Below, one piece after another: positions 4,092-27,095 of a DNA stretch of 56,221 nt (position 1 is the first letter of the stretch; the number at the start of each line of letters is the position of its first letter). The notes below the pieces were generated by a model that ran no database searches, was not told the DNA's origin, and saw only the letters and a program-made list of their open reading frames with translations. Source of the DNA: Oscillospiraceae bacterium (GTDB lineage Bacteria > Bacillota > Clostridia > UBA1381 > UBA9506); contig SVKI01000008.1 of the NCBI GenBank assembly GCA_015068555.1, positions 1-56,221 of the forward strand, in the 5' to 3' direction. Position numbers and translations under genes: made by a program.

Positions 4092-4208
4092 GGTTATATC
4101 ATCCTTTCCTAAGGAATCTTGTCCCAAATCCATTGAGACAATAACTTCAAGGCTTCCCCTTGAGGGGAATCCTCTAAACGGGGTCCCCGCAAAGCAACGC
4201 TTTGCATC

Positions 4209-4270
4209 GTAGGGGCGGATGCCCTCATCGTCCCGTTATTCTGCGGGCGGATGTAGGCATCCGCCCCTAC
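4209..4270. repeat. Dispersed inverted repeat, GTAGGGG type
   Basis: Arms of 15 bases (GTAGGGGCGGATGCC and its complement) lie at 4209-4223 and 4256-4270. Related elements with ATTGTAGGGG/CCCCTACAAT-type ends occur at 8255, 38921 and 56160. The rest of the 4092-4422 gap holds a perfect GCGCGCATGCGCGC palindrome at 4311-4324 and fragments resembling a second dispersed motif (AAGGCTTCCCCTTGAGGGGAA at 4149-4169 in part). No gene is visible there. Confidence 0.6.
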
Positions 4271-4372
4271 AAATTGTCCACTCAACCTCCCGCAAGGGGA
4301 ACCTTTTAAAGCGCGCATGCGCGCACCTTCTGTCTCATGTACCCTTTGGGTAAAAAGGGATGTCCTTCATAG

Positions 4373-4408
4373 TTTCATTAAGGGAGGAAGTCCCCTCCCT
4401 TAATGAAA
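4373..4408. terminator. Hairpin after the large repeat-protein gene
   Basis: TTTCATTAAGGGAGG is complementary to CCTCCCTTAATGAAA across a 6-base loop, just beyond the stop of the gene ending at 4423. No strong U-run follows on the minus strand, so it may stabilise a mRNA end rather than terminate transcription. Confidence 0.4.
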
Positions 4409-4422
4409 TCGTTTGTGATTGA

Positions 4423-11984: not shown

Positions 11985-12635
11985 TTATTTAATTACCGCT
12001 ACATAACGCTTTGCCAGTTCGCGAATGCCGTCGTAATCTTCTGCTTCTAAGAGCTTTTTATCAACGATGTTTGCGCCAACACCAAATCCTGCAGCACCGG
12101 CTTTAATATAATCCGGCATGTTGCCATCATGGATGCCGCCAACAGCTGTTAACTTAATATGTGAAAGCGGTGCTTTTACTGCCTTGACATAACCGGGGCC
12201 CAAATCGCCTGCTGGGAACAGTTTTACAAAAGTGGCGCCCAACTCATGTGCTTGTTGAATCTCTGTCGGTGTTACAGCGCCGGGCATAGATACCATGCCG
12301 AGCTTTCTTGTTAGGGCAATAACCTCAGCATTGGTATTCGGGGAAATGATGAAGCGTCCGCCTGCCTGATGTGTAAGTTCTACCTGTTTGGTAGAAAGAA
12401 CTGTTCCGGCACCAATGTGCATGGTGTTGCCAAAATGGTCAACCAGCATTTTGATATTGGCTGCGGTTTGCTCATCGCTTACTTTGCCTGTTGCATCAAA
12501 GGTTACTTCCAAAAGGCGGATGCCACCATCATACATTGCCTGTACAAGCGGAATTAATTTTTCTTTTTCTACGTTTCTTACAATAACGATGATTTTTTCT
12601 TCCTCGATGGATTCACAAACTTGACTGTAAAACAT
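11985..12635 (-). CDS. eda: 2-dehydro-3-deoxy-phosphogluconate/4-hydroxy-2-oxoglutarate aldolase
   Basis: Protein of about 216 residues. The ATG at 12635 is preferred because AAGGAG lies 7 bases upstream; an ATG at 12641 would overlap that site. The KDPG/KHG aldolase signatures are present: LLEVTFDATG with the catalytic Glu near residue 43, GAGTVL, and TFVKLFPAGDLGPGY with the Schiff-base Lys. The enzyme splits 2-keto-3-deoxy-6-phosphogluconate into pyruvate and glyceraldehyde 3-phosphate, the last step of hexuronate and related acid-sugar breakdown. It begins 18 bases after the AraC-fusion gene. This hints that the imported glycan contains uronic or aldonic acids, but no kinase, isomerase or dehydratase for the pathway is present here. 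Confidence 0.9.
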   Translation of the reverse strand: MFYSQVCESIEEEKIIVIVRNVEKEKLIPLVQAMYDGGIRLLEVTFDATGKVSDEQTAANIKMLVDHFGNTMHIGAGTVLSTKQVELTHQAGGRFIISPNTNAEVIALTRKLGMVSMPGAVTPTEIQQAHELGATFVKLFPAGDLGPGYVKAVKAPLSHIKLTAVGGIHDGNMPDYIKAGAAGFGVGANIVDKKLLEAEDYDGIRELAKRYVAVIK

Positions 12636-12653
12636 AATCATTCTCCTTTACTC

Positions 12654-14330
12654 TTATATCTCTGTTGTATTGTTTCTTAACAGTTTTCTGTAATCAGAAG
12701 GTAAAACGTGTTCGCTCTGCTGGAACATTTTAGAGAAATAGCTGGAATTAGCAAAGCCGCATTCCTGCGCAATCTCTGTAATAGACTTGTTTGTATTAAT
12801 CAGCAATCGTTTGGCATTGGCAAGCTTTAGTGCCCGTTTGTATTCGGTAATCGTCGTGCCGGTTGCCTTTTTGAACTGATGCATCATGTAGTATTCGCTG
12901 ACTTCCGCCTTTTGTGCGATTTCCTTCACCGACAAATCAGCATCCTTATTTTCCATGATGATTTTTTTTACAATTTCCACAATCGGGAAAGAATCCTTCT
13001 TGAGTTCTGAGACAGAACGAACCAGCGTGATCATCTCAGTTACCTTTTGCATTTTGTTGCCGGACTCTTTGTCGATGGCTTCGGCCAGGTCGTCAAACTT
13101 TTTGCTTTCCAGCTTGTGCATATTCACACAGTTGATGGAATAGTGTTCCAAGATTTTGTCCATGATATGGTCTGGATGCTCTTTGATTAAATATGCCGCC
13201 AGTTCAGTATCCGTGAACTTCTCTGTTTCGTGGAAGGGATTTTCGTGTTCCTCTGAATACTTACCCAGTTTAGAGATAATGCATCTCAGTTTGCTATCAG
13301 GACTTACTATCTTGCCGGCCATGATATCCTCTTCAGTAATCTTGGCATACAGAATTTCTCTGGCACAGGCATAGGCTTCTTCTATGGATTTTTTCAAAAC
13401 GCCTCTGTCGCAGTCATAGGTAATGTACAGATAACCATCGGGGCCAACGGCACCATCGGGATAGGACACATTTTCTCTTTCGTCAAGCAAAAGTCTGTAT
13501 TTCCATGTCTTGCCCTCATCTTCTGAGAGATATGCCGTCAGGTTGTTTCTGACTTTGGAATTGTCATGATTGACAAGTAGAACGCGACCGGAAGGAAGGC
13601 GCCTGATAAAGAAGCGGGAAGAAGGACCGCCTAAGCCACTGTCTTTACCCTTTGTCCAGGTGCGTCCGCTATCGAACGAATAGGAGACGCCAATACCGTA
13701 GTTGGTGCGAACAAACACAGCCAGTCGACCGTCATTATACTCCAGCACCATATGTTCATCAAAGGAACGGTTCTCAATGTCGGCACCACCCAATTTTTCA
13801 AAGGTTTTGCCGTTATCAATTGTTTTGTAAACAAAGGATCCTTTTTCCGTCTCCTTGGTGTCATACTCTGTACCTAAAACACGTACACCGTCATTCCATA
13901 CTGCGATGGGGAATAACCATTCACCTGTAGAAAGAACGGTTGGCTTGTTCATCATAACATCATGACCCACAAAGATAACATCACTCCAGCTGAGTTCCTC
14001 TGCATCCGGGTCATCACAAATGACAGCATATGTACCATGCATAGGAATCATTGACCAGGTAAACCATAAGCGACCTAAAGGGTCAATCCATAGGCACGGG
14101 TCAAAGCAGCGGTGGCCCGACTTATATGCCACAGCAATCGGGTCAGAAAAATGAACTCCGTCGTCCGAGCGAACAAGCATAACATAGTTATCTAATTCTT
14201 CTTTGATGCCGCCGGAATAAAAGGTTGCATAGATGCGACCTTTCGAGGTCACTTCAATGCCCGGAATTCCCTGCCATACACGATGCTCGGCTGTATATTT
14301 TGCTAGTTCTTTTTTGTCAATAATAAACAT
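12654..14330 (-). CDS. Sialidase-fold (BNR/Asp-box) domain fused to AraC-type DNA-binding domain
   Basis: Protein of 558 residues from the ATG at 14330, which follows AGAGGTG. Residues 15-345 form a six-bladed-propeller, sialidase-like domain with four Asp-box-type motifs: SDDGVHF (55-61), TIDNGKTF (170-177), SFDSGRTW (218-225) and SEDEGKTW (269-276). Residues about 450-553 are a double helix-turn-helix AraC/XylS domain (SVKEIAQKAEVSEYYMMHQF and SITEIAQECGFANSSYF). There is no signal peptide or membrane span, so it acts in the cytoplasm. The Arg of the usual sialidase RIP motif is replaced (QGIPGIEV), so sialidase activity is doubtful. It heads the sugar operon. I infer a one-component regulator in which the propeller binds a sugar acid, or an enzyme-regulator hybrid. 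No similar characterised protein comes to mind. Confidence 0.85.
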   Translation of the reverse strand: MFIIDKKELAKYTAEHRVWQGIPGIEVTSKGRIYATFYSGGIKEELDNYVMLVRSDDGVHFSDPIAVAYKSGHRCFDPCLWIDPLGRLWFTWSMIPMHGTYAVICDDPDAEELSWSDVIFVGHDVMMNKPTVLSTGEWLFPIAVWNDGVRVLGTEYDTKETEKGSFVYKTIDNGKTFEKLGGADIENRSFDEHMVLEYNDGRLAVFVRTNYGIGVSYSFDSGRTWTKGKDSGLGGPSSRFFIRRLPSGRVLLVNHDNSKVRNNLTAYLSEDEGKTWKYRLLLDERENVSYPDGAVGPDGYLYITYDCDRGVLKKSIEEAYACAREILYAKITEEDIMAGKIVSPDSKLRCIISKLGKYSEEHENPFHETEKFTDTELAAYLIKEHPDHIMDKILEHYSINCVNMHKLESKKFDDLAEAIDKESGNKMQKVTEMITLVRSVSELKKDSFPIVEIVKKIIMENKDADLSVKEIAQKAEVSEYYMMHQFKKATGTTITEYKRALKLANAKRLLINTNKSITEIAQECGFANSSYFSKMFQQSEHVLPSDYRKLLRNNTTEI

Positions 14331-14348
14331 AGTTTCACCTCTGATTCT

Positions 14349-14433
14349 ATTATACATGATTTATCTTTATACATAATACAACAAAACTGCTTTTTATAAA
14401 AAAAATTTTTGTGTATTCTATAACAAAACTGCT
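14349..14433 (-). promoter_or_regulatory. Probable promoter of the sugar operon with two direct-repeat operator half-sites
   Basis: An extended -10 (TGTATAAT on the minus strand, 14349-14356) lies 20 bases before the regulator start. Upstream of the weak -35 are two exact copies of AACAAAACTGCT (plus-strand reading) at 14380-14391 and 14422-14433. Their starts are 42 bases apart, about four helical turns. This geometry fits binding of an AraC-type activator, most simply the adjacent fusion protein. The rest of the stretch to 14726 is strongly AT-rich with no gene seen. Confidence 0.5.
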
Positions 14434-14726
14434 CTTTTTTTCCTCCTTTTCCACAATTTAAAAAAATTTTAATCTTTTTTGTGCACAATGCACAATAAAA
14501 TCTCACCCACCTCCCACAAGAAATCTCTTTTACTTATAGAAAAATATAATTTTTATTTTTAAAAAATTATATTTTTCAGAACAAATCAAAACACATTTTT
14601 TCTCTTTTTATAACAACAAACCGAACATATTTTTGTGAAATTTGACAGTTTTATTATATCAAAAAAAAAGAAATTTCTTCAATTATTTTTATCTTTTTTA
14701 CACTTTTAGGACAAAAAATTAAGCTA

Positions 14727-14764
14727 AAAAGTGCTTATGTATCCCATGGTACATAAGCACTTTT
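14727..14764. terminator. Perfect 15-bp hairpin with flanking A and T runs
   Basis: AAAAGTGCTTATGTA pairs with its exact complement across an 8-base loop (14742-14749), with a T-run shortly after. It could act in both directions. It separates the sugar locus from the spoIVB-remnant region. Confidence 0.75.
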
Positions 14765-14917
14765 CGACTGTTTTTTTTTGTGAAAAAATGTCGTTTTTAC
14801 AGGCAAAAACACATTGTTACTTCATCCCTAAACAAAAAATTTCATTTTTTTCTATCTAAAGTTCCCTCAATCAGCTTCGCCGGTTATTATCTCAAAGTGG
14901 GTTTCCCTGTTCTCGCT

Positions 14918-14958
14918 AAAAAAGAGGCTGTAGCTAAATGTGCTACAGCCTCTTTTTT
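14918..14958 (-). terminator. Hairpin terminator just downstream of spoIVB remnant A
   Basis: A 17-base arm (AAAAAAGAGGCTGTAGC) pairs perfectly across a 7-base loop. It overlaps the stop codon of the truncated spoIVB copy, just as a hairpin follows intact spoIVB at 25779-25825. This suggests that a full gene end, terminator included, is preserved here. Confidence 0.8.
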
Positions 14959-15116
14959 AGTTTGCGCCTTCCGCCCCGGCAAGTATATTCTCAATAAATA
15001 TCCCATACGTACGCGTCGAGTCATTGACAGAAACGTGCGTCACAGCCCCCACAATTCGACCATTTTGAAGTATCGGTGACCCTGACACGAGTGTTGTCAA
15101 TAGGCGGGGACAACAA
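14957..15116 (-). pseudogene. Remnant A: last 43 codons of spoIVB plus a shared flank
   Basis: Read on the minus strand, 15088-14957 gives an open 43-codon segment, [20 protein letters not shown] followed by [18 protein letters not shown] and a stop. It aligns with the C-terminus of the intact SpoIVB encoded at 25833-27095, including the catalytic Ser of SGSP. By hand about 84 of 105 aligned bases agree. At 15089-15116 it departs from spoIVB and enters a flank (GTGTTGTCAATAGGCGGGGA) that recurs in remnants B and C. There is no start codon or ribosome binding site, so it is not a functional gene. Confidence 0.85.
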
Positions 15117-15157
15117 AATTTGTTAATTTTCAAAACAAGACTAACAGGTAATTTTGT

Positions 15158-16546
15158 TCAATTAAACATCATATTCTCAACAAACAATTCCGAAAAATCA
15201 GAGTTTGATGACAGGTCGATGTACTCGGCATTGTTTATAATATGTGAAAGGTTATTGCTTTCTGTTGCATATTTAGCAGTTCCGAGAAGGCTCGAATTGT
15301 TGAGCGGGATACATTTATCCCGGAATTCTGCAGGCAAAAGACCGGTAATTACAGCGTTGTTTATATTGATTTCTGCAGAGAAACCACCTGATATATACAC
15401 ATTTTCGATATCACCAAAGCCGATATTTTTTATCTTCATAAGGGTCAATGTCGCAGAATATACTGCGGATTTTGCAAGCTGATACTGTCGTATGTCATGC
15501 TGAGTAAGGATAACTGTGGTTGCGACTTCAAATACCTCATCCTCCATAAAGCCGGTTTCGTCTATTGTTTCTGTTCTGAGAAGGTGTGCGATAACATCTA
15601 TAAGCCCAGTACCGCAGATTCCTTTTGGTTTTGCATCGGCTATGGTTTTTGCTCCGTCCGGGGAATATGCATATACTGCTCCGGGGGTTGCGCCCATACC
15701 GCAGGAGATATTTGCCCCCTCAAAGCAAGGGCCTGCAGCCGCCGCTGTGCACAGAACAGAGTCCCGCGAAAACAGTGCTATCTCTGCATTGGTGCCGAGG
15801 TCTATAAGAAGGCTGTGTTTTTCTGCCTTTTGCATATTCACAAGATTGAGTCCTGCCACAATATCCGCCCCAACAAAGGACGCTATCGACGGAAGAGAAA
15901 CCACAGTTTCAACACCGTTTATTCCAAGAGAAGAGGCATTTGCGATTTTTGATTCCAAAAAAACAGGGGTATAGGGTGCTATGCCCATAGATGAGCAGTC
16001 AACATCGAAAAATGTGTGAAGCATCGTGGTATTGCCGGAAGCATAAAGCTTTTTTGCACCGGTTGCCCCGAATTGGGAAATCAGGGAATTGATTGCAACG
16101 CAAAGGGAGCTGTTAAGATCTGTTATGCCATTTTTTATGCAGTAGTCAATCCTTGATATAACATCGGCACCAAATGCTTTTTGCGGGTTATCGCAGGTTT
16201 TGACATCGATGATATCACCCGAATCCCGGGAAACAAGTGCCAGGGCAAGGGTTGTTGAGCCGATGTCAAGAGCAAAGCATGTATTATCTGACAGAATTCC
16301 TGTGGTCTGTGCTCCGGAGAAACTGAATGTATCGCCTTTGCTTAAAAAGGAAACCTCAATATCTCCTTTTACCTTATATAGGCACGACAGTTCTTCCTTG
16401 CCGTTTACAAGCACTGTGCATTTGCCACATTTGCCCATTCTGCCACAGGGATGGTCAACATAGAACCCCTGCTCTGTTAAAACTTCTGACAAAACCGTAC
16501 CGTCAGATACCAAAAATTCTTTATTATTTAAAATAACCCTATGCAT
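15158..16546 (-). CDS. Corrinoid-protein reductive activator: [2Fe-2S] ferredoxin plus ASKHA domain (RACo/RamA-like)
   Basis: Protein of 462 residues. Residues 1-75 form a plant-type [2Fe-2S] ferredoxin with Cys34, Cys40, Cys43 and Cys55 (CX5CX2CX11C). From about residue 90 it has a DUF4445/ASKHA ATPase core (CFALDIGSTTLALAL, LLIDLGTNAEIAL, GICGTGLID, YISGGFSAEI). Such proteins use ATP to drive reduction of inactive Co(II) corrinoid to Co(I) in methyltransferase systems. It is shorter than the roughly 600-residue RACo because the middle linker domain appears reduced. The start overlaps the end of the upstream methyltransferase gene by 8 bases, so the two are translationally coupled. Confidence 0.9.
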   Translation of the reverse strand: MHRVILNNKEFLVSDGTVLSEVLTEQGFYVDHPCGRMGKCGKCTVLVNGKEELSCLYKVKGDIEVSFLSKGDTFSFSGAQTTGILSDNTCFALDIGSTTLALALVSRDSGDIIDVKTCDNPQKAFGADVISRIDYCIKNGITDLNSSLCVAINSLISQFGATGAKKLYASGNTTMLHTFFDVDCSSMGIAPYTPVFLESKIANASSLGINGVETVVSLPSIASFVGADIVAGLNLVNMQKAEKHSLLIDLGTNAEIALFSRDSVLCTAAAAGPCFEGANISCGMGATPGAVYAYSPDGAKTIADAKPKGICGTGLIDVIAHLLRTETIDETGFMEDEVFEVATTVILTQHDIRQYQLAKSAVYSATLTLMKIKNIGFGDIENVYISGGFSAEININNAVITGLLPAEFRDKCIPLNNSSLLGTAKYATESNNLSHIINNAEYIDLSSNSDFSELFVENMMFN

Positions 16547-17528
16547 AAAGCTCTTTCACCATCTCAAAATACGCATCAATATTTTCCCATTTAGATTCAG
16601 CAGGAATATCACATCCTGATGAAATCATAAAGTTCTCGTACCGGGAGTATTCGTTATACACACGGCATACCTCCGCCCTAATTTCTTCCGGAGTGGCACT
16701 TTTGAACAAAACAGGGTCTATATTGCCCATAACCACCATATCTGAGGGCAGATTTTCAAATGCTTTTTTCATGTCTACGGCATTGCCTAAATGAACGATA
16801 TCTGCTCCAAGTTCTGCTACCAAATCAAACATATCCTGTACAGAATTGCCGCAGTTGTGATAGCAGATAATGAAATCATCGTCAGCTATCTCATCAAATA
16901 TTTTTTTGACATATGGCATTGAAAATTCCTCTGCCAAAGCAGGAGAAAGAAGTCCTGCCGCAGGCTCTGCCATTATGACGCCGTCTGCTCCCACAGCCTT
17001 GAATGCTTTGACATATGAAATAAGAAACTCGGTTGTCTTTGAAAGAAGGATTTTGACATCCTCGGGACTTTCATAGCACTCCATCATCAGTTCGCTCATA
17101 TCAAAAAGCCTGCCGGCAAGAGAATAAGGACCGATAATTCCGCAGAAAACAGGACGGTCGGTTATTAATTCCTTTGCCTGTTTTACACCGTCTATATATA
17201 TTCCTGTCCGGGCATCTCCCACCTTAGGTACAGCGATGTTTACCGCATCCGAAATATCGTCAATACAGCCACTTTCGACAGTGGGAATCTCATCTTCAAA
17301 AAAACGTATTCCTGCCCCGAAGGCCTCTGCCTCCACCGACAAATCCATCATGTTAAGCGATGCACCAACAGCGCATCTTTTGCATATGGCTGCCATTGCC
17401 TCTGCCTGAGTCTGGGATGATGAAATCAGTTCGTTGACGCTGATTCCCAGCAGTTGTACCGAAGGGAAGGAAAGAATCGGTACTGTTTTATCCTTATTGG
17501 CAAGAAGTGCTTTTACTTTATTTTTCAT
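16539..17528 (-). CDS. URO-D-fold corrinoid methyltransferase (MtaA/MtbA-like)
   Basis: Protein of 329 residues from the ATG at 17528, which follows AAGGTGA; the GTG nine bases upstream lies inside that site. The uroporphyrinogen-decarboxylase fold is recognisable (MAEPAAGLLSP, YHNCGNS, GNIDPV). The zinc site of methylcobamide:thiol-type methyltransferases is present as His224-X-Cys226 and Cys306. It would move a methyl group between a corrinoid protein and an acceptor such as tetrahydrofolate or a thiol, or demethylate a substrate. It sits between the DUF2284 gene and the activator gene in a compact operon. Substrate and acceptor cannot be told from sequence. Confidence 0.88.
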   Translation of the reverse strand: MKNKVKALLANKDKTVPILSFPSVQLLGISVNELISSSQTQAEAMAAICKRCAVGASLNMMDLSVEAEAFGAGIRFFEDEIPTVESGCIDDISDAVNIAVPKVGDARTGIYIDGVKQAKELITDRPVFCGIIGPYSLAGRLFDMSELMMECYESPEDVKILLSKTTEFLISYVKAFKAVGADGVIMAEPAAGLLSPALAEEFSMPYVKKIFDEIADDDFIICYHNCGNSVQDMFDLVAELGADIVHLGNAVDMKKAFENLPSDMVVMGNIDPVLFKSATPEEIRAEVCRVYNEYSRYENFMISSGCDIPAESKWENIDAYFEMVKELYA

Positions 17529-17543
17529 TGTTATCACCTTGAA

Positions 17544-18068
17544 TTAAAATAATATTATGCAAAAATATGTTACTGTTTGCGGACCGTTGTTGTAGTTTAT
17601 ACCGATTTTTTTTGCCAGCTCCACAACATTGATACCGCAGGCTTCCACAGAAACAATTGCCTTGTCAGGAAATCGGCAGGGTGAGTTGGGATAGGTGCAT
17701 TTTTCACATAGATTGCAACCCTCGCATCCAAGAGCAAGAAAGCTGATATTATCTTTTTTCAGCTTCTGTATGATTTCGTCAAGAACCTTTCTTGTCTCGT
17801 GATGTCCTGCGGTCATACCCTCAAAGTCAAAACAATCCTCAAGATCATATTTGCAGGAGAAAACCAAAGCATTTTTGTAACTCTTTATTTTTGCTTCGAT
17901 TTCTTCCAGTTCACCTGCTCCCGGCGGACAGGTCCAGCAGGTGCCGTATTTTCCGCACTGATTTGCTTTACACATATCCACCACAGCTTTGGAAAACGGA
18001 ATTTCCTCTGATAGTATCTCCTTATACTGAAAAACCAGGGGATTGGTTAAATATTCTATTATATTCAT
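17544..18068 (-). CDS. DUF2284 cysteine-rich metal-binding protein
   Basis: Protein of 174 residues with about a dozen Cys residues, including the motifs CGKYGTCWTCPPG near residue 38 and ALGCEGCNLCEKCTYP near residue 112. This is the pattern of DUF2284 proteins, which are often encoded with corrinoid methyltransferases and may carry Fe-S clusters. The start overlaps the stop of the AraC-corrinoid gene in an ATGA, indicating coupled translation. The function is not established; a role in electron supply or in cofactor handling for the corrinoid system is an inference from the neighbours. Confidence 0.8.
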   Translation of the reverse strand: MNIIEYLTNPLVFQYKEILSEEIPFSKAVVDMCKANQCGKYGTCWTCPPGAGELEEIEAKIKSYKNALVFSCKYDLEDCFDFEGMTAGHHETRKVLDEIIQKLKKDNISFLALGCEGCNLCEKCTYPNSPCRFPDKAIVSVEACGINVVELAKKIGINYNNGPQTVTYFCIILF

Positions 18069-19591
18069 AGGCTACTGCAATGCTCAACCGCTGCATCGGC
18101 AGCACTTGCGGCATCAGGTGTATATGTATCTGCACCGATTTCACGGCAGAATCCATCTGTAACGGGTGCTCCTCCAACCATGATTTTGACTTTATCTCTG
18201 ATACCTGCAGTTTCGCTGGCTTTTACTACCTCTGCCATAACCCCCATAGTGGTTGTGAGCAGGGCGGAACAGCAGATAACTGCACATTCATTTTCTATTG
18301 CCGCCTGAACAAAGCTTTCCGGTGCAACATCGACACCGAGGTCGATAACCTCAAGGCCTTTTCCTTCCATCATCATTTTGACAATGTTTTTTCCGATGTC
18401 GTGCAAATCACCCTGAACCGTACCGATACAAACCTTTCCCTTTGACTGAACTCCGTCCTCAACAAGGAAGGGTTTCAGCAGTTCCATTCCTTGGTTCATT
18501 GCTCGTGCGGCAACCAGAACCTCAGGAACATAAACCTCGCCGTTTTTGAATTTCTCGCCAATAACACTCATTCCCGAAAGGAGTCCGTCATTCAGAATTT
18601 GAACAGCCGGCAATCCATTGTCCAGTGAACTCTGAACAAGCTCCTTTACAATTTTTGCCTTACCTTTCTGAAGGTTTTCTGAAATTTCTACAAGTATACT
18701 CATAACACTCTCTCCTTGATATATTTTTTGTGACATTTTATATTGATAGGGCGTCATACCCATAAGAGCTTTGAAGATGCGGTAAAAGGATGGTATGTCC
18801 TTCAGTCCGCATTGATTTACAATTTCCCTGTTTGTTAAATTAGTGGTTTTAAGTAATTTACATGCTCTTTCTATCCTGATATTGCGTACATAATTGGAAA
18901 AGGTTTCACCTGTTGCTTTTGCAAAAATCCTGCTTAAATATGAAGGACTTACATATAGCGACGAGGCCAGGGATACAAGAGTCATTGCATTGTCGTGACA
19001 GTTTTCTTCAATCAGCCGCTTTGCATTGAAAACTGTCATTCTGGTTTTGGCGTATTCTACCTTAACGGTATCTGCCATATCCATATACCTTCCGAGCTTT
19101 GCAAGAAGGATGGTGAGATTTGCTCCGACAACCGTCTGCCATTCCGGAGGTTTTTCGCTGATTTCGTCTGATATTTCTTTAAAAAGATTTTTGAATTCTT
19201 CTGTCATGGTTGTGTTCAGGACAGAAGCAGAAATCGGAAATGTGTCTCTGAAAACACCAAGGCAATATCTTTCACTTTCTATATCCCATAAGCTATGGTC
19301 AAGAAAAGCAGATGGCTCGAAGGACAGTGTATATATCACCGGTTTATCCTCACAGCCTATAGCATAATATGAGTGAGAAACACCGCCGCCTATAATATGT
19401 ATATCTCCCGGACAGAATTCGTCTGCTTCATTCATAATCTGGTGAATGCCACTTCCCGATACAACAAGATTTATCTCTACAAAACCGTTGCGAATGGTGT
19501 GCCCGGGATTTATATCTGGACAGTAATCCTCATCGACGCATCTTGTTTCACAGGTTATGGGACACTCTCTGAATTCGTCACTCAATTCCAT
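18065..19591 (-). CDS. AraC-type regulator fused in frame to a corrinoid-binding methyltransferase protein
   Basis: Protein of 508 residues. The N-terminus has four closely spaced Cys (10, 14, 18, 24). Residues about 25-95 look like a cupin sensor, and 190-288 is an AraC double helix-turn-helix (AMTLVSLASSLYVSPSYLSR; NREIVNQCGLKDIPSFYRIF). From Met297 a complete corrinoid protein follows: helical cap (297-385) and B12-binding Rossmann domain with DLHDIG (His397 as lower cobalt ligand), SALL (442-445) and GGAPV (473-477). Each part is of normal length for a stand-alone protein. The five-residue joint QGESV is encoded by what looks like the old ribosome binding site of the corrinoid gene. The regulator may therefore sense the cobalt or methyl state of its own enzyme system. 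Confidence 0.93.
   Translation of the reverse strand: MELSDEFRECPITCETRCVDEDYCPDINPGHTIRNGFVEINLVVSGSGIHQIMNEADEFCPGDIHIIGGGVSHSYYAIGCEDKPVIYTLSFEPSAFLDHSLWDIESERYCLGVFRDTFPISASVLNTTMTEEFKNLFKEISDEISEKPPEWQTVVGANLTILLAKLGRYMDMADTVKVEYAKTRMTVFNAKRLIEENCHDNAMTLVSLASSLYVSPSYLSRIFAKATGETFSNYVRNIRIERACKLLKTTNLTNREIVNQCGLKDIPSFYRIFKALMGMTPYQYKMSQKIYQGESVMSILVEISENLQKGKAKIVKELVQSSLDNGLPAVQILNDGLLSGMSVIGEKFKNGEVYVPEVLVAARAMNQGMELLKPFLVEDGVQSKGKVCIGTVQGDLHDIGKNIVKMMMEGKGLEVIDLGVDVAPESFVQAAIENECAVICCSALLTTTMGVMAEVVKASETAGIRDKVKIMVGGAPVTDGFCREIGADTYTPDAASAADAAVEHCSSL
18701..18717 (-). promoter_or_regulatory. Internal ribosome binding site and start codon inside the fusion gene
   Basis: On the minus strand AAGGAG (18717-18712) stands 8 bases before an in-frame ATG (18703-18701) that encodes Met297. 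Translation from here would give a free corrinoid protein of 212 residues. The site lies exactly between the two domains, so it is either still used or is the fossil of the separate gene. Confidence 0.7.
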
Positions 19592-19614
19592 CTCTCCTCT
19601 GCACAGCTTGACAA

Positions 19615-19914
19615 TTAAAGAATTTTCTTTATTTCCTCGGCATAGTATTGTACAAGCTCAAATTTTGCTCCGGGCATAAGTCTGTGGTCTGGGCAGGGAA
19701 GACATCCGCCAAGCGCAACAAGGCGTTTTAGTCTTTCTATTTCAGCATCAACTGAGGCTTTATCTTCTCTAAGCGCCATCATATCCATGCCGCCTACGCC
19801 GAGCATACCCTTTCCAAACCTATTTCTCGCTGCTTCAAACTGATCATCCCAAACACCGATGTCATGCCCCTTATCCGGCCAAGAATACTTCCTGCCGAAA
19901 CACCACTCCTTCTC
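19615..19914 (-). pseudogene. Truncated URO-D-family methyltransferase, C-terminal 99 codons
   Basis: The minus-strand frame is open from 19914 to the stop at 19615, and a stop (TAA at 19917-19915) blocks it upstream. It encodes RNRFGKGMLGVGGMDMMALR followed by LGGCLPCPDHRLMPGAKFEL, the typical C-terminus of URO-D-type catabolic methyltransferases. About two thirds of the gene is missing. It lies 23 bases upstream of the AraC-corrinoid gene and ends close to remnant B. It was probably the substrate-side methyltransferase, cut off at the island edge. Translation from the internal ATG at 19806 cannot be excluded but would give only 63 residues. Confidence 0.8.
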
Positions 19915-20010
19915 TTAGTTTACTATAAGTATAACATCTATTTTTAGAAAAATAAATATGGTATTTTTGATTTGTATAGTATTTACAGAAATAAAACCAT
20001 ATAAGATTTT

Positions 20011-20098
20011 ATGAAAACGTGTGTCATAGCTCCCACAATTCGGCCGTTTTGACGTATCGGTGAACCTAACACGAGTGATGTCAATAGCGGACAGCATT
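20011..20098 (-). pseudogene. Remnant B of the spoIVB 3' end
   Basis: The minus strand encodes [20 protein letters not shown], matching the SpoIVB segment around its catalytic Ser. The last 20 or so codons of spoIVB are missing. At its upstream side it carries the flank shared with remnants A and C (ACGAGTGATGTCAATAG, plus strand) instead of the spoIVB sequence. It is not a gene. The 252 bases to remnant C are AT-rich and show no coding or RNA feature. Confidence 0.8.
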
Positions 20099-20350
20099 TT
20101 TCATTATTTTTGAAATTTTGAAGGAAATAGGTTTGAATTTGAAGATAATAATGAGGGAAAAAGAAGGAAATCCTGACGGAAATCATAATTCTTCTTCAAA
20201 TTTTTATGTGTTATATATAATCGGGCCTCTGTTACTTTATAATTGGAGAGCCACACTTTTGTAATAAAAATCATGTGATTTTTGTTACAAAAAAAGACAG
20301 GACTTTCATCCTGCCTTAATTTGCTTATAGATAAAATTTTATTTTTGACA

Positions 20351-20451
20351 CTTGGGTCATTCACAAAAACATGTGTCACAGTTCCTACAATTCGGCCATT
20401 TTGCAAGATGGACGAACCCGACACGAGTGTCGGCAATATAGGACAACAATT
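20351..20451 (-). pseudogene. Remnant C of the spoIVB 3' end
   Basis: The minus strand encodes [20 protein letters not shown] followed by FVNDP, then diverges from spoIVB. The plus-strand flank ACACGAGTGTCGGCAATATAG matches those of remnants A and B. It lies at the left edge of the arabinose island. A longer frame through it exists, but it has no ribosome binding site and its remainder resembles nothing known to me. Confidence 0.82.
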
Positions 20452-20627
20452 TTTTGAAAATTCAGACTATAACTCAAATTCAATCTCAATGTTTACCTTT
20501 GGGATTATTTCTTTTAATTTCTTGTGATCGGTTTCTTCCTCAACAATATTTTGTCTGCTGAGTCTGTGAAAAATAATATGTTATAATCCGTTTTGATTGA
20601 ACTGTGCTTAATGTCTGCTTCTTAAAA
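20452..20627. other. AT-rich gap downstream of araD
   Basis: This stretch holds no gene or clear hairpin terminator that I can see. It is the left end of the arabinose island. Confidence 0.5.
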
Positions 20628-21317
20628 TCATTTTTGTCCGTAATAGGCATTTTTTCCGTGTTTGCGCAAATAGTGTTTATCCAATAATTCCTGTTGCATA
20701 ACCTGAATTTGGGGATATAACATCTCGGTATGAAATGCCATAAAGGCAAGCTCTTCCAACACAACTGCATTATGAACAGCATTATCAGAATCGGTTCCCC
20801 AAGAGAATGGTCCATGAGAATTAACCAAAACTCCGGGAATATCTTTTGCTGATTTACCATTGAAACATTCTATAATTACATTCCCTGTTTCAAGTTCGTA
20901 CTCCCCATTTATCTCTTGAACAGTCATTTTTCTGGTACAGGGAATTTCGCCATAAAAATAGTCACCATGAGTTGTGCCGTAAGCAGGAATCCCTCTTCCT
21001 GCCTGTGCCCAAACCGTTGCCCAACGGGAGTGCGTATGAACAATCCCACCAATATTAGGGAACGCTTTATATAACGCCAGGTGTGTAGGAGTATCAGAAG
21101 AACTCTTCCATTTTCCCTCTACAATATTCCCATCCAAGTCGACAACTACCATATCGTCGCAGGTCAAGGCACTATATTCTACACCACTTGGCTTTATAAC
21201 AACAAGATCCTTTTCCCTGTCTATACCCGATACATTTCCCCAAGTAAAAGTTACAAGATTATGCTTAACCAATCTCAAATTAGCTTGTAAAACCTGTTGT
21301 TTTAATTGTTCAAGCAT
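20628..21317 (-). CDS. araD: L-ribulose-5-phosphate 4-epimerase
   Basis: Protein of 229 residues from the ATG at 21317 ([20 protein letters not shown]), which follows GGGAG; this matches the usual AraD length. Class II aldolase-fold motifs are present: TWGNVSG for phosphate binding, [14 protein letters not shown], the zinc ligands in [14 protein letters not shown], and GTTHGDYF. The enzyme converts L-ribulose 5-phosphate to D-xylulose 5-phosphate, which enters the pentose phosphate pathway. It is the last gene of the araA-abfA-DUF6171-araD set. No ribulokinase (araB) is in the window, so that step must be encoded elsewhere. Confidence 0.95.
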
Positions 21318-21383
21318 TTTAAAAAACTCCCTTTTTGCTGAATTTATTTCAATACATAAAATAGTGAAATACCGTTTTTCCAT

Positions 21384-21635
21384 CTACCATTTTCTATCTT
21401 TGGAATCCGGACATCTTGCGTCCAAAAAGGCTGCTCTTAATTCAACATAACAGCCACATTTCAAACAAGTGCCAGAAAGAAGATGATCACAACACTTGCA
21501 AAAATTCAGCCTGCTTTCGTAAAGTGAATCGTTTGCCTTCTGGTTATGAGGAATTTTGTTTATATGCTCCTGAATGCTTTCAAGAACATCTGTCTGTGCA
21601 CTCTCATACAGCAAGCATCTTTTACATGTATTCAT
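21384..21635 (-). CDS. Small cysteine-rich DUF6171-like protein
   Basis: Protein of 83 residues from the ATG at 21635, two bases after the abfA stop; there is no independent ribosome binding site, so translation is probably coupled. It has paired Cys motifs: CKRCLL at the start, CKCCDHLLSGTCLKCGCYVE in the middle, and a C-terminal CPDSKDRKW. These suggest one or two zinc or Fe-S knuckles. It matches the pattern I associate with DUF6171, small proteins of gut Clostridia. Its position between abfA and araD is odd for a sugar operon; the function is unknown. Confidence 0.7.
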   Translation of the reverse strand: MNTCKRCLLYESAQTDVLESIQEHINKIPHNQKANDSLYESRLNFCKCCDHLLSGTCLKCGCYVELRAAFLDARCPDSKDRKW

Positions 21636-21637
21636 AA

Positions 21638-23101
21638 TTATTGAATAACAAACTTTACTACACTGCAAGGCGGAAGCATTGCCTTAAAGCCGTCTGAAGT
21701 TTTTTCAAAATCAGTAAATACCGCGGTTCCTACTGCATTTTTATTTTCAAAGGTGTTGTGTGCATCTATATTGCCTGTTAAGATTTCGGCAGTTATCAGA
21801 TTTGGGCTGAAATCTGCAATCTGACAGGCAATTTCAATTGCTTCATCGGCAGAGGTATTAACGATTGTGGAAATAATGGTTCCATCCTCGCTAACAGATG
21901 CGGATTCAATAAGTTTAGGCAGTTTTCTACCTTCAACATTAGATGTGGTTATATATGATCCAAGCAGAGTTTGCTCCTGATGCTCTTTATACATTTTGAA
22001 AACATGGTAGGTGGGTGTTAAAAGCATCTGCTCACCTTCAGTAAGTATCACTGCCTGAAGTACATTTACCATCTGAGCGATATTCGCCATTTGAACCCTG
22101 TCACAGTGTTTGTTGAATATGTTAAGAGTAAGTGCTGCAACAATAGCATCACGCATGGTATTTTGCTGATACAAAAATCCGGGATTTGTACCGGGTTCCA
22201 CTTCATACCACGTACCCCATTCGTCAACTATCATACCAATGCGCTTTTCAGGATCATAACGATTCATGATTTCGCCATGACGTGTAACGAGCTCTTCCAT
22301 TCTGTACGATTTCTCAAGAACTTCGTCATATTCTTCTTTTGTAAATCCGGTCGAAGAGTACATATTTTCCCAGTCAACCGTGTAATAATGGAGCGAAAGA
22401 CCACTCATATATGGCGTTGCTTTTTTCATAAGTGTTTCGGTCCAGTTGTAATTGAAGTTGCTTGGTCCGCAAGCAATTTTGTAAATTGGCTTGCTTTTGT
22501 CGTAGTTTCTTACATAAGTAGCGTAACGAGCATATAAATCGGCATAATAATCCGGAGTCATATTACCGCCACATCCCCAGTTTTCATTGCCTACACCAAA
22601 GAACGCCACGTTCCAAGGCTGTTCATTGCCGTTCTCTTTTCTCAGCTGTGCCATCGGGGATACCCCATCAAACGTCATATATTCTACCCATTCGCTCATT
22701 TCCTGCACGGTGCCTGAACCTACATTTCCGCTTATATAAGCGTCACAACCAAGCTGACTGCAAAGCTCAAAAAATTCGCGAGTACCAAAAGAATTATCTT
22801 CCACGACGCCGCCCCAATGGGTATTAATCATTTTTTTGCGGTTTTCCTTTGGACCAATACCATCTTTCCAGTGGTATTCATCAGCAAAACAACCACCCGG
22901 CCAACGAAGAACAGGAATTTTAATGTCTTTTAAGGCATTTACCACATCGCAACGCATACCGTTTACATTTGGAATATCTGAATCCTCTCCAACATAAATT
23001 CCTTCGTAAATGCATCTACCAAGGTGCTCACTGAAATGACCGTAAATGTTTTTATTGATCGTTCCAAGTTTCTGATTTGGATTAATTAAATATTTTTCCA
23101 T
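21638..23101 (-). CDS. abfA: Intracellular alpha-L-arabinofuranosidase, GH51
   Basis: Protein of 487 residues with no signal peptide, so it acts on imported arabino-oligosaccharides. GH51 hallmarks are clear: [21 protein letters not shown] near the N-terminus (given in part), [13 protein letters not shown], the acid/base Glu173 in GNENWG, and the nucleophile Glu294 in [11 protein letters not shown]-terminal beta-sandwich follows the barrel. It releases L-arabinose from non-reducing ends, feeding AraA encoded just upstream. The gene starts 20 bases after the araA stop and is followed at once by the DUF6171 gene. Confidence 0.96.
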
Positions 23102-23121
23102 AACTTTCTTCTTATTTTAAT

Positions 23122-24591
23122 TTATTTTAATTTCCATATTAAATCATTAACCAACAATTCCTGTTCCAAAGTCTCAACCGATGTATCTTTGGTTATATGG
23201 ACAAATTCAATATCCATCATTCTTGCCCAATCTTTCATTTGTTCCGCCGATACATCGTAGGACAGCACAGTATGATGTGCGCCGCCTGCTGTAATCCAGC
23301 ACTCCACACCGTCCGTAAGATTTGGCATAGCTCTCCACATCACACGGGCAACCGGCAATTTAGGCATAGGCATAATAGGTTTAACACAAACAATATCTTG
23401 ACATATAAGACGCAACCTTCCGCCCACATCGATGAGACTGACAACAATAGCGTTGCATTCTTTCCCCTCAAAAACCAGACGTGCAGGATCTTTTTCATTC
23501 ATCCCAATCCCAAGATGATGTATTTCAATCCTTGGTTTTGTATCAGAAGATGCAAGACTCGGGCATACCTCCAGCATATGCGCTCCCAGTGAATATTCTT
23601 GCCCCTCAACAAGATGGTATGTATAATCTTCCATAAAAGCAGATGCACCGTTGCCGTTTTCTCCCATCGCTTTCATAATGGCGGTCATCGCGGCAACCTT
23701 CCAGTCGCCCTCTCCACCATATCCATACCCTTGTGACATTAAATGTTGACTTGCAAGTCCGGGGAGTTGTTCCATACCATACAAATCCTGAAACGTATTT
23801 GAAAATGCTTTGCAATCTTCTTTGTCAAGCATCTTCTTGATTGCAATTTCTTCTCGGGCCTGATATCGTATTGCGGTAATGTTATCGGTAGCGATATCAT
23901 ATTTGGATTGATAAATCGCCATCAGTTCGTCAACTTCCTGTTCGGAAACAGCATTAATTTCTTTTACCAAGTCGCCAACCGCCCAAGTATTAACCTGCCA
24001 GCCAAGTTTGGTCTGCACTTCCACTTTATCGCCTTCGGTAACTGCCACTTCACGCATATTGTCACCAAAACGCATGACCTTCATATTTTTTGAAACCGCG
24101 ACACCGACAGCTGCTTTCATCCAGTCACCAATACGCTTATGTGTTCTTGTATCCTGCCAATAACCTGCAATAACTTTTCTGGGCATACGTAAACGTGCTG
24201 CGATAAATCCGTGTTCACGGTCACCATGTGCCGCCTGATTTAAATTCATAAAGTCCATATCAATCTCATCGTTTGGAATTTCTTTATTGTATTGCGTTGC
24301 AAAATGGCAGTATGGTTTTTGAAGATTTACGAAGCCGTTAATCCACATTTTGGAGGGGCTAAAAGTATGACACCAAGTAATGATGCCCGCACAGCTATCA
24401 TCATAATTGGCTTTCTTTACAATATCAGCAATTTCCTGATTTGTCTTTGCAACTACTTTGTATAGCAAAGGATATGGAAGCTTTTCAGACAGTTTTTCTA
24501 CCATTTCCTTTGCTCTTGTTTCAACGGTCTTTAAAACATCATCGCCATACAGAAGCTGGGACCCGACCACAAACCAAAAGTTGTATTTCAT
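23122..24591 (-). CDS. araA: L-arabinose isomerase
   Basis: Protein of 489 residues beginning MKYNFWFVVGSQLLYGDD, the normal AraA start, after GAGGTG. Typical motifs follow: WCHTFSPSKMWI, PYCHFATQYNKEIP, and the metal-ligand region GYGYGGEGDWKVAAM and SFMEDYTYH-like FMEDYTYHL. It converts L-arabinose to L-ribulose in the cytoplasm. It is first in the operon and divergent from the AraC-type regulator gene. A good promoter lies about 150 bases upstream. Confidence 0.97.
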   Translation of the reverse strand: MKYNFWFVVGSQLLYGDDVLKTVETRAKEMVEKLSEKLPYPLLYKVVAKTNQEIADIVKKANYDDSCAGIITWCHTFSPSKMWINGFVNLQKPYCHFATQYNKEIPNDEIDMDFMNLNQAAHGDREHGFIAARLRMPRKVIAGYWQDTRTHKRIGDWMKAAVGVAVSKNMKVMRFGDNMREVAVTEGDKVEVQTKLGWQVNTWAVGDLVKEINAVSEQEVDELMAIYQSKYDIATDNITAIRYQAREEIAIKKMLDKEDCKAFSNTFQDLYGMEQLPGLASQHLMSQGYGYGGEGDWKVAAMTAIMKAMGENGNGASAFMEDYTYHLVEGQEYSLGAHMLEVCPSLASSDTKPRIEIHHLGIGMNEKDPARLVFEGKECNAIVVSLIDVGGRLRLICQDIVCVKPIMPMPKLPVARVMWRAMPNLTDGVECWITAGGAHHTVLSYDVSAEQMKDWARMMDIEFVHITKDTSVETLEQELLVNDLIWKLK

Positions 24592-24743
24592 AGCATTTCA
24601 CCTCAAATGTTTTCTACTGCTGTCTTTTCGACATTAAGCAGAAGATTATATTTTTTTAAATAAGCGTTATAACTGCTTTAATTCTGGAAGAACCAAGTTC
24701 AATTCCAAGGTATGTTTTCACCGAAACTACCTCTTTTGATCAA

Positions 24744-24772
24744 ATTATATCTTTCTTAACCAACTCGGGCAA
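24744..24772 (-). promoter_or_regulatory. Promoter of the araA operon
   Basis: On the minus strand TTGCCC (24772-24767), a 17-base spacer and TATAAT (24749-24744) precede araA by about 150 bases. The 5' leader holds no clear riboswitch fold. Confidence 0.7.
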
Positions 24773-24791
24773 GAAATCTAATGTTTTAGTA

Positions 24792-24820
24792 TGGACAAAT
24801 ATTGATATATATGATATGAT
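24792..24820 (+). promoter_or_regulatory. Promoter of the arabinose regulator gene
   Basis: TGGACA (24792-24797), a 17-base spacer and TATGAT (24815-24820). It is divergent from the araA promoter, with only about 20 bases between the two -35 elements, so one operator could control both. Confidence 0.6.
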
Positions 24821-24850
24821 TAATCACAGGAAAAGGGGTGTTATGGAACT

Positions 24851-25696
24851 ATGTTGGGAAATTACGAAAGAAGACACTTCCTCAGCGGAGAAAAAATATG
24901 GCTTGGCAGATATAGAAATCTTACTAATATACTACATTGGCATTTCGAATGTGAAATTATAAGAATCGTTAAGGGTAAAGCCAAAATCAAAATTGGCGAT
25001 TTTTGTTTTGATGCTGTCAAAGATGACTGTTTTTTTTGTCGGAGCGAAGAATTACATTATATCACCTGTGAGCCTGATACACTGGTAGATATTGCTATTT
25101 TCGACGAAACTCTCGCCGCGGAGATAACGAGTAAATATACAGTTGCATCTCCAAAGCTTCCAAAAAACATTCCCATAGAAGTGCATTTTCATTATATAAA
25201 AAAAGAACTCTCTCAAAAAAGACAGTTCTACCGTGAGGCGCTTGAAAATCACGCAAGAGGTTTATTTATCGATATTTTTCGCAATTGCCAAATCGCAAAG
25301 TGCGAAGACAAAGTGAGTTTGTACAAAAATCTTATTACCAAAATCAATGATGAGTTTTCATTCATCACTTTTGAAGATGCTGTACAGTATTCCGGATACA
25401 GCTCATCGCACTTTTCAAAAGTGTTCAAAAAGCTTACCGGAATGAATTTTTCAGAATATCTGAATATCATAAAAATTGAAAACGCTATTATGCTACTTCG
25501 TGATAACAATGCTACCATGACATCCATTTCTCTAAAATGTGGGTTTTCAACTATACGAAATTTCAATCGTGTATTTAAAAAGGTTACAGGATATTCCCCA
25601 CTTTCACTTCCAAAAGATTTTATTATGGAAACAGGCTTGCACATATCAAGGACAGATCATTTTGATCCAACCGATAAAGCTTCCATACTACTATAG
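24851..25696 (+). CDS. AraC-family regulator of the arabinose cluster
   Basis: Protein of 281 residues. The N-terminal 110 residues resemble a cupin sugar-binding domain (ILHWHFECEIIRIVKGKAKI). The C-terminal 100 residues form an AraC double helix-turn-helix (TFEDAVQYSGYSSSHFSKVF and MTSISLKCGFSTIRNFNRVF). The start at 24851 lies about 11 bases from the AGGGG-type ribosome binding site. An out-of-frame ATG at 24843 is closer to that site and opens a 39-codon overlapping frame. Divergent placement from araA suggests arabinose-responsive control of the araA-abfA-araD operon. Confidence 0.9.
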   Translation: MLGNYERRHFLSGEKIWLGRYRNLTNILHWHFECEIIRIVKGKAKIKIGDFCFDAVKDDCFFCRSEELHYITCEPDTLVDIAIFDETLAAEITSKYTVASPKLPKNIPIEVHFHYIKKELSQKRQFYREALENHARGLFIDIFRNCQIAKCEDKVSLYKNLITKINDEFSFITFEDAVQYSGYSSSHFSKVFKKLTGMNFSEYLNIIKIENAIMLLRDNNATMTSISLKCGFSTIRNFNRVFKKVTGYSPLSLPKDFIMETGLHISRTDHFDPTDKASILL

Positions 25697-25778
25697 CAGC
25701 AAAAACGGAGTAAATATGATTAATGTAAATATTAGATAAGAAAAACAATTCACATTAAATAGAATTAGAGAGTAAGAA

Positions 25779-25825
25779 GAGATTACCGCAAATTGAGTAT
25801 TTAAAACTCAACTTGTGGTAATCTC
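25779..25825. terminator. Terminator between the arabinose regulator and spoIVB (convergent)
   Basis: GAGATTACCGCAAATTGAG (25779-25797) pairs with CTCAACTTGTGGTAATCTC (25807-25825), using two G-U pairs, around a 9-base loop. It can serve both convergent genes. Confidence 0.75.
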
Positions 25826-25832
25826 ATTTAGT

Positions 25833-27095
25833 TTACCTGATTTTTTCCGCTTCTGCCAGCATATTCTCAATAAATATCCCATAACCTCTTGTTGGATCAT
25901 TCACAAATACGTGTGTCACAGCTCCCACAATTTTACCATTTTGCAGGATGGGTGAACCTGACATGCCTTGCACAATTCCGCCTGTTTTTTCAAGTAACCG
26001 TTCATCCGTTACGCGAATGACCATATCCTTATGGGCATCCAGATGATAGCGCGATGTCTTTTGAATTTCGATTTGAAATTCCTCTGTTTTCTCCCCTTCA
26101 ATATTGCAAAGGATGGTAGCTTTCCCCTGCCGGACCTGGTTACCCGAAGCCACCAGACACCGTTTTTCTGCCTCGTCCCGGTGATTCAGCGTGCCGAAGA
26201 CGCCCTGTGGCGTATTTTGATGAATGACGCCCAACAGTTCTTCCTGCATATTAAAAACAGCTTTTAATTCTCCCGGCTCCCCCACTTTTCCCTTTGTGAT
26301 GCCAACAATATCGGCTCGCAACAAGCTGCCCTCTGAAACTGGCATCAAAGCGCCTGTATCCGCATCGGTAATGGCGTGACCCAAGGCGCCGAAAGCGCCG
26401 CTTTCCGGGTCAGAATAACTCAGTGTTCCAACGCCGGCGGTGCTGTCCCGCATCCAGAATCCCAATTTATACCCTTCCCCGGTTTTAATGGGAGAAACCT
26501 CCTTTTGCAATTCCCGACCGTTCCGACGGATAAGAAACTGTATCGGCTCACCCCGGCTCTCGGCAAGCAACCTTGCAAGCTGTTCTGTCTCTTTTAATGC
26601 CTCACCTTGAGCACGCAAGAAAATGTCGCCCTCACGGATATCCTCTTGCCGTGCCACATCGTAAGGTCTTCCGTTTTCGGCTTGAACGGCCTGCGTTCCG
26701 ACGCAAAGAATGCCCTCTGTAAAAATTTTAATACCCACCGTGCGACCGCCTGGTACAAGCTCGGTGGCCGGCTCCACATGAACTGCAACCGTGCGGACCG
26801 GCACAACACCAAAAAGCTTAACCGAGGTCTGGTATTCTCCACCCGATTGCAGTTCTATTGCATGATTATAGCTATCCTTTTTAAGTCTGCCGTCTTCGTG
26901 CAAAACACCTGCCTCCGACACCGTTTTCTCCAAAGAAAAAGCAGATATTTTGGCGTCTTTAAGCTGTTCCCCTTCAAATAATGTAATGGCTTTGGGATAA
27001 CAAAGCTGACAATCTAAAATTGTTCCGGCGATGACCGTCACCACAAGCAGCGAAAAAATTTTAATTCTGTCGGTGAGTTTTAACCTTTGTTCCAT
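25833..27095 (-). CDS. spoIVB: SpoIVB sporulation serine protease (S55)
   Basis: Protein of 420 residues from the ATG at 27095, with GGAG 9 bases upstream. A membrane anchor lies at residues 11-30. A PDZ domain (about 105-190) follows, then the S55 peptidase domain with the probable triad His240 (GALGHAITDADTG), Asp364 (VTDERLLEK) and Ser381 ([12 protein letters not shown]). In sporulation SpoIVB is secreted from the forespore and starts the cascade that activates sigma-K in the mother cell. It is followed by the end of the arabinose island. Its last 25-43 codons recur three times as remnants between 15 and 20.5 kb. Confidence 0.95.
   Translation of the reverse strand: MEQRLKLTDRIKIFSLLVVTVIAGTILDCQLCYPKAITLFEGEQLKDAKISAFSLEKTVSEAGVLHEDGRLKKDSYNHAIELQSGGEYQTSVKLFGVVPVRTVAVHVEPATELVPGGRTVGIKIFTEGILCVGTQAVQAENGRPYDVARQEDIREGDIFLRAQGEALKETEQLARLLAESRGEPIQFLIRRNGRELQKEVSPIKTGEGYKLGFWMRDSTAGVGTLSYSDPESGAFGALGHAITDADTGALMPVSEGSLLRADIVGITKGKVGEPGELKAVFNMQEELLGVIHQNTPQGVFGTLNHRDEAEKRCLVASGNQVRQGKATILCNIEGEKTEEFQIEIQKTSRYHLDAHKDMVIRVTDERLLEKTGGIVQGMSGSPILQNGKIVGAVTHVFVNDPTRGYGIFIENMLAEAEKIR

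Follow-up and report, generated by a model that had tools for sequence, protein, structure and literature searches.

The window, a stretch of 56,221 nucleotides, carries on its reverse strand an operon whose central gene is a stop-free ORF of 508 codons (18065-19591). Translation, Pfam and a structure model identify its product as a cupin-AraC regulator joined to a corrinoid protein. Pfam and structure alignment assign residues 1-296, linker included, to the regulator half (18704..19591), the regulator proper being 1-295, and the same methods together with a cofactor motif assign residues 297-508 to the corrinoid half (18065..18703), which is also the predicted product of an internal start. 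The remaining genes of the operon lie on the same strand. The first is a remnant of a UroD methyltransferase retaining about its last 85 residues (19618..19914; the UroD match covers 18-98 of a 99-codon frame); the promoter and a sequence resembling a ribosome-binding site immediately precede it, and its shortening could reflect either a deletion or an assembly gap. Downstream of the fusion gene, and overlapping its stop, is a gene for a DUF2284 metal-binding protein (17544..18068; Pfam), followed by an MtaA/CmuA-like methyltransferase of the UroD family (16539..17537) and a RACo-like reductive activator of corrinoid proteins (15158..16546), both assigned through Pfam and profile matches. The window therefore holds one intact UroD gene and one remnant, of which an intact counterpart is found in the genome RGIG995 (L005:3759-4913), while contig 10 of the genome G421 holds three UroD genes and a RACo-like gene.

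A hint, from genomic context only, that the substrate of the operon may be linked to glycans comes from neighbouring genes: araA, a GH51 gene and an aldolase gene are also present in the window, and GH38, GH92 and glucuronate isomerase genes are found near the corresponding fusion in the genome G004. Several other features of the surroundings were recorded. A direct repeat of approximately 88 nt is present in four copies (15030-15117, 20014-20101, 20366-20453 and 25906-25993) and nowhere else in the genome; the copies at 15030 and 20014 flank the methyltransferase operon, and those at 20366 and 25906 the arabinose genes, in a cassette-like arrangement. A second fusion between an enzyme-like protein and a regulator, in which BNR (sialidase-like) repeats are followed by an AraC HTH, occupies a single ORF of 567 aa at 12654-14357 on the reverse strand. 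Two neighbouring ORFs, 1253 and 1254 aa long, lie on that strand as well (372-8187); F5/8 type C domains are present in one of them, and the other has no Pfam match.

The preliminary description of this DNA had claimed that a cupin-AraC regulator runs directly into a complete corrinoid protein with an intact cobalt ligand at His397, and on this point Pfam, motif and model agree. The double HTH of an AraC-family one-component regulator is recognised by Pfam at approximately 194-285 (HTH_18 at 208-285, 1.2e-19; HTH_AraC, 4e-15). The cupin half falls under the Pfam report threshold in the window protein, but AraC_binding exceeds its cut-off in each of the five relatives, and in the model residues 7-174 align with the regulatory domain of RhaR (5u93; Z 16.5, 148 residues aligned), indicating an N-terminal ligand domain of the cupin type. 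In the C-terminal half, B12-binding_2 (302-373) and B12-binding (386-488) are matched, corresponding to the helical cap and B12 domain of MttC/MtaC-type proteins. The motif of that type, DxHxxG-x41/42-SxL-x26/28-GG, is present as D395-x-H397-x-x-G400, S442-x-L444 and GG473-474 with gaps of 41 and 28 residues, and its residues are invariant across the five fusions that cover the corrinoid motif. A second AlphaFold2 model, made with more AraC rows in the alignment, has a mean pLDDT of 78.7 and recovers the fold of each half, with a cupin and an AraC double HTH preceding a corrinoid protein of which residues 295-506 align with MttC (7xcn) at Z 26.9. The linker at 290-296 is modelled as disordered, and as the pTM is 0.40 the orientation of the two halves is undefined. 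The corrinoid half is hence a complete protein of the methyltransferase type, that is, of the catalytic methyl-carrier type, and is predicted to bind a corrinoid and accept methyl groups from a partner methyltransferase, candidate partners being present in the operon.

A search for the same architecture elsewhere revealed five further in-frame fusions in four other genomes, giving a total of six fusions in five genomes. Identity to the window protein is 55% in G004, which belongs to the same genus as the source of the window and came from a search of relatives; 52% in RGIG995 (also G866), a cattle rectum MAG from a scan of species genomes; and 50% in G163, where the fusion is cut by a contig end, 44% on contig 10 of G421 and 36% on contig 45 of G421, these last three loci having emerged when 391 genomes of the class were searched. 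In a non-exhaustive survey of 398 genomes drawn from the phylum, with three candidates scored per genome, only the window's own fusion was found. The copy on contig 45 of G421, here G421b, runs in frame into a UroD methyltransferase, forming a triple fusion of AraC regulator, corrinoid protein and enzyme of 897 aa (L110:4686-7379, reverse strand; an 897-codon frame without a clear ATG start).

The linkers differ in sequence and vary from 12 to 26 codons (12, 26, 17, 12 and 18 at five of the junctions), yet they are always in frame and free of stops. A chance open frame is an unlikely explanation, as linkers shuffled at the same composition would all be stop-free with P of about 2e-4 if treated as independent; both this figure and the Shine-Dalgarno statistics given below count related sequences as independent. 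An assembly or sequencing error merging two separate genes in the window might be suspected, given that the genome is a 74%-complete draft in 34 contigs and that a ribosome-binding site and ATG mark the joint. However, four further genomes, each assembled independently, carry the same in-frame joint at five loci between them. The fusion is therefore not an artefact, and with six loci in five assemblies this highly improbable explanation was rejected. A stop or frameshift between the domains in other assemblies, or homologues that are always split, had been named in advance as grounds for abandoning the fusion; both were looked for, and the fusion stood. As the joint, the DNA control site and the second start are kept across several genera, the AraC-corrinoid fusion looks like a real and undescribed design of uncultured gut Clostridia rather than a sequencing error.

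The second start, which like the control site had escaped the preliminary description, is located at the junction itself. Residues 296/297, where the domains meet, coincide with a ribosome-binding site followed by a start codon (CAAGGAGAGAGTGTT-ATG), the window junction reading CAA GGA GAG AGT GTT ATG. Within the fused ORF, junction comparison and predicted pairing place a Shine-Dalgarno sequence (the AAGGAGA region) at 18710..18716 on the reverse strand, followed by the ATG of Met297 (18701..18703), the predicted start of a free corrinoid protein. The sequences preceding the ATG are AAAGGAGAG in RGIG995, AAAGGAAAG in G004, AGAGGAGAG in G163 and AAAAGGAGAG at the contig 10 locus of G421 (G421a), such that the Shine-Dalgarno sequence and in-ORF ATG are kept at five of the six junctions despite the variation in linker length. 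Predicted pairing with the anti-Shine-Dalgarno sequence at these five loci ranges from -6.5 to -9.4 kcal/mol and ranks first or second among the Met codons of each gene; -6 kcal/mol is reached by 9% of other Met codons. Because the ribosome-binding site is kept while the surrounding amino acids have varied, a free corrinoid protein of 212 aa is probably made as well, by internal initiation. No further small B12-binding_2 gene was found in the window's own genome, G004, RGIG995 or G421, others being MetH-sized or absent, and the fusion genes should therefore supply the carrier for the UroD methyltransferases, although these are draft genomes from which a separate corrinoid gene could be missing. 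Dual products would not be universal, since G421b has neither the Shine-Dalgarno sequence nor the ATG at the junction and hence should be producible only as the joined protein.

The conserved internal start and the variability of the linker would also suit a simpler arrangement, in which the genes are ordinary overlapping members of an operon: the stop codon of the regulator was lost, read-through is tolerated, and what serves the cell is the regulator half on the one hand and the carrier from the internal start on the other, the joint itself standing idle. Corrinoid genes are commonly preceded at close range by a PocR-type regulator gene, from which a single stop separates them, and at around two dozen other loci an AraC-type gene directly precedes a corrinoid gene with at least one intervening stop, those that were read being PocR-like. 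Against this stands the observation that none of the six linkers has acquired a stop or frameshift despite changes in length, that the joint has been gained or lost at least twice in the corrinoid tree, and that G421b lacks the internal start and has added a third domain. Such an idle joint is accordingly regarded as a possible but rather unlikely account.

Upstream of the operon, also on the reverse strand, is a predicted operator consisting of TATGGTTTT, 30 nt and ACCATATTT (19954..20001), which is conserved before the fusion operons of relatives and nearly unique in each genome, followed by a predicted extended -10 box, TGTTATACT (19928..19936), whose first position lies 26 nt beyond that of the right half-site, a spacing that is conserved. 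G004, RGIG995 and G163 keep the operator pair ahead of their fusion operons (the right half being ACCCTATTT in G163), and a variant precedes an unfused regulator in the genome G051. Counted from GTTTT, the right half starts 34-36 nt on (38 in the G051 variant), and a further 25-26 nt from that start a -10 box of the TGnTAwAAT type begins. When about 1 Mb of fetched loci was scanned, the composite pattern appeared at these operons and nowhere else. Across whole genomes it occurs once each in G004, G163 and RGIG995, twice in the window's own genome and once in G010, and is absent from G001, G002, G003, G005, G011, G051 and G421, the pattern being one that does not match the variant forms before the G051 and G421 genes. 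The second exact site in the window's own genome (contig 31), which is without the -10 spacing, and the G010 match, which falls inside a long ORF, were set aside. The variant TGTGGTTTTGTTYC stands before both fusion genes of G421; these two sites are its only ones in that genome, and five others searched contain no copy. Rfam detected no RNA element within 12000-26000. As both the site and its G421 variant are nearly unique per genome, it is very likely that the AraC half binds the candidate TATGGTTTT/ACCATATTT site and controls the operon it belongs to. That so specific a site accompanies a clade of regulators counts as good evidence for such binding and control, though it does not amount to proof.

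That clade comprises all six fused regulators and the unfused regulator of G051, and is separated from other cupin-AraC proteins with 99% support. The G051 regulator lies beside a UroD gene without an adjoining corrinoid gene; having this neighbour and a similar upstream site, it implies that the fusion is dispensable for regulation as such. At this locus (L183, contig 85), the UroD gene and the unfused sister regulator are bracketed by two near-identical copies of a neighbouring gene's end, resembling a cassette-like insertion. By contrast with the single regulator clade, the corrinoid halves take two places in a quick version of the corrinoid tree: those of the window, G004, RGIG995 and G163 group together, whereas the G421 pair falls beside stand-alone proteins of another family. 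To account for the supported branches, the joint must have been gained or lost two or more times, and the regulator lineage would so appear to have been joined to corrinoid genes more than once, to have exchanged its partner, or to have been split again in some copies.

Taken together, these observations make it reasonably probable that the gene encodes an autoregulatory AraC regulator fused to its own operon's methyl-carrying corrinoid protein, very likely yielding two products. The AraC half would bind the half-site pair, with the right half near -35, and would control this operon only, a step for which the sequence comparisons argue strongly. The cupin, possibly together with the tethered corrinoid domain, may then signal the presence of a methylated substrate or of usable corrinoid. 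Ribosomes would also initiate at the internal Shine-Dalgarno sequence and ATG, again a strongly indicated step, to release a free corrinoid protein that may, as the working carrier, shuttle methyl groups between the UroD methyltransferases, with the RACo-like reductase keeping it active. Since there is one reading frame on one mRNA, the levels of regulator-carrier and free carrier would be tied to one another.

Whether the joint itself carries a signal is a separate matter. DNA binding by the AraC half could respond to the tethered corrinoid, be it to its methylation or oxidation state, as the preliminary description had proposed, or simply to its being there. The enzyme's cofactor would then report to the promoter, in the manner of the self-methylation of Ada. 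In keeping with such a role, the motif is intact in every fusion covering it, the joint has been conserved or formed more than once, and G421b, having lost its internal start, is committed to the joined protein. Nevertheless, this is a tentative proposal and somewhat improbable: the linker of 12-26 residues is variable and predicted to be disordered, which argues against rigid coupling and may leave the joint unable to pass on a signal; the model leaves the halves unoriented; an internally started free carrier would bypass the tethered copy; and the cupin is available as an ordinary sensor, substrate sensing by this domain being a ready alternative, overlooked in the preliminary description, to sensing of the corrinoid state. 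An effect of the tethered cofactor's methylation or redox state in particular on DNA binding is possible, at well short of an even chance, and the data are equally compatible with a modest role for the joint, for example in coupling the levels of regulator and carrier. The fullest version, in which the catalytic corrinoid of the operon is the sensor of its regulator, methylation or redox state sets promoter activity, the internal start frees the same domain as carrier and one frame ties the amounts, is a little more doubtful still. The locus makes it testable whether the state of a corrinoid methyltransferase system is read by bacteria at its promoter itself, with the operator, the internal start and the single His ligand each separately changeable, and offers a way into how UroD/RACo methyl-group operons are controlled in gut anaerobes.

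No AraC-corrinoid fusion has been described in the full-text literature searched, which covered few subscription journals, in line with the earlier statement that no described fusion of an AraC regulator with a catalytic corrinoid protein was known. Ada and CarH are analogues and not matches. Ada is an AraC-type regulator with a methyl-accepting domain that controls its own gene, taking methyl groups irreversibly on cysteines. The fusion instead has a reversible corrinoid carrier and resembles Ada in the HTH only: the Ada model matches the window protein over this region alone, below the cut-off, and neither of the cysteine methyl-acceptor domains (phosphotriester and O6-methylguanine repair) is detected in it by Pfam. 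CarH and LitR, like the fusion, combine a DNA-binding domain with a B12-binding module; they have a MerR-type HTH, sense light through adenosylcobalamin and carry a W-x9-EH motif. The HTH here is AraC-type, and residues 297-508 contain no Trp and no W-x9-EH motif, ruling out a CarH-like photoreceptor. RhaR, AraC, ToxT and Rns share the cupin sensor and double HTH, and the predicted operator of the fusion likewise lies near -35, but these proteins end after the HTH and none has a corrinoid protein. Conversely, the corrinoid proteins of the MttC, MtaC and MtgC types (7xcn, 2i2x, 4jgi, 1y80) have the same sequence, fold and cobalamin motif, along with UroD and RACo partners, but stand alone, whereas the fusion has an AraC regulator in front and an internal start between the two.

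Joining of a corrinoid protein to another protein of the same pathway is known from CmuA, a methyltransferase-corrinoid fusion (PMC9768040); the partner is an enzyme in CmuA and a regulator here, while G421b joins regulator, carrier and enzyme. UroD methyltransferase-corrinoid fusions in the CmuA-like order were also seen in two genomes of family f5 (L116, a 596-aa frame on the reverse strand, and L117:3893-5671 on the forward strand), each adjoining a DUF2284 gene. PocR-domain sensors are found near corrinoid methyltransferase operons (PMC9768040), and AraC regulators with this domain share the gene order of the fusion, lying directly before the corrinoid gene, but have a different sensor domain and, in the loci seen, always a stop between the genes. 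The mlp clusters are a known neighbour system (PMC10418091). Finally, Cas8b/Cas11b provides a precedent for an internal in-frame start (PMC11899642), one frame yielding full-length and C-terminal products as predicted for the fusion; unlike in that system, the predicted short product here is a metabolic carrier, and the long product is the regulator of that carrier.
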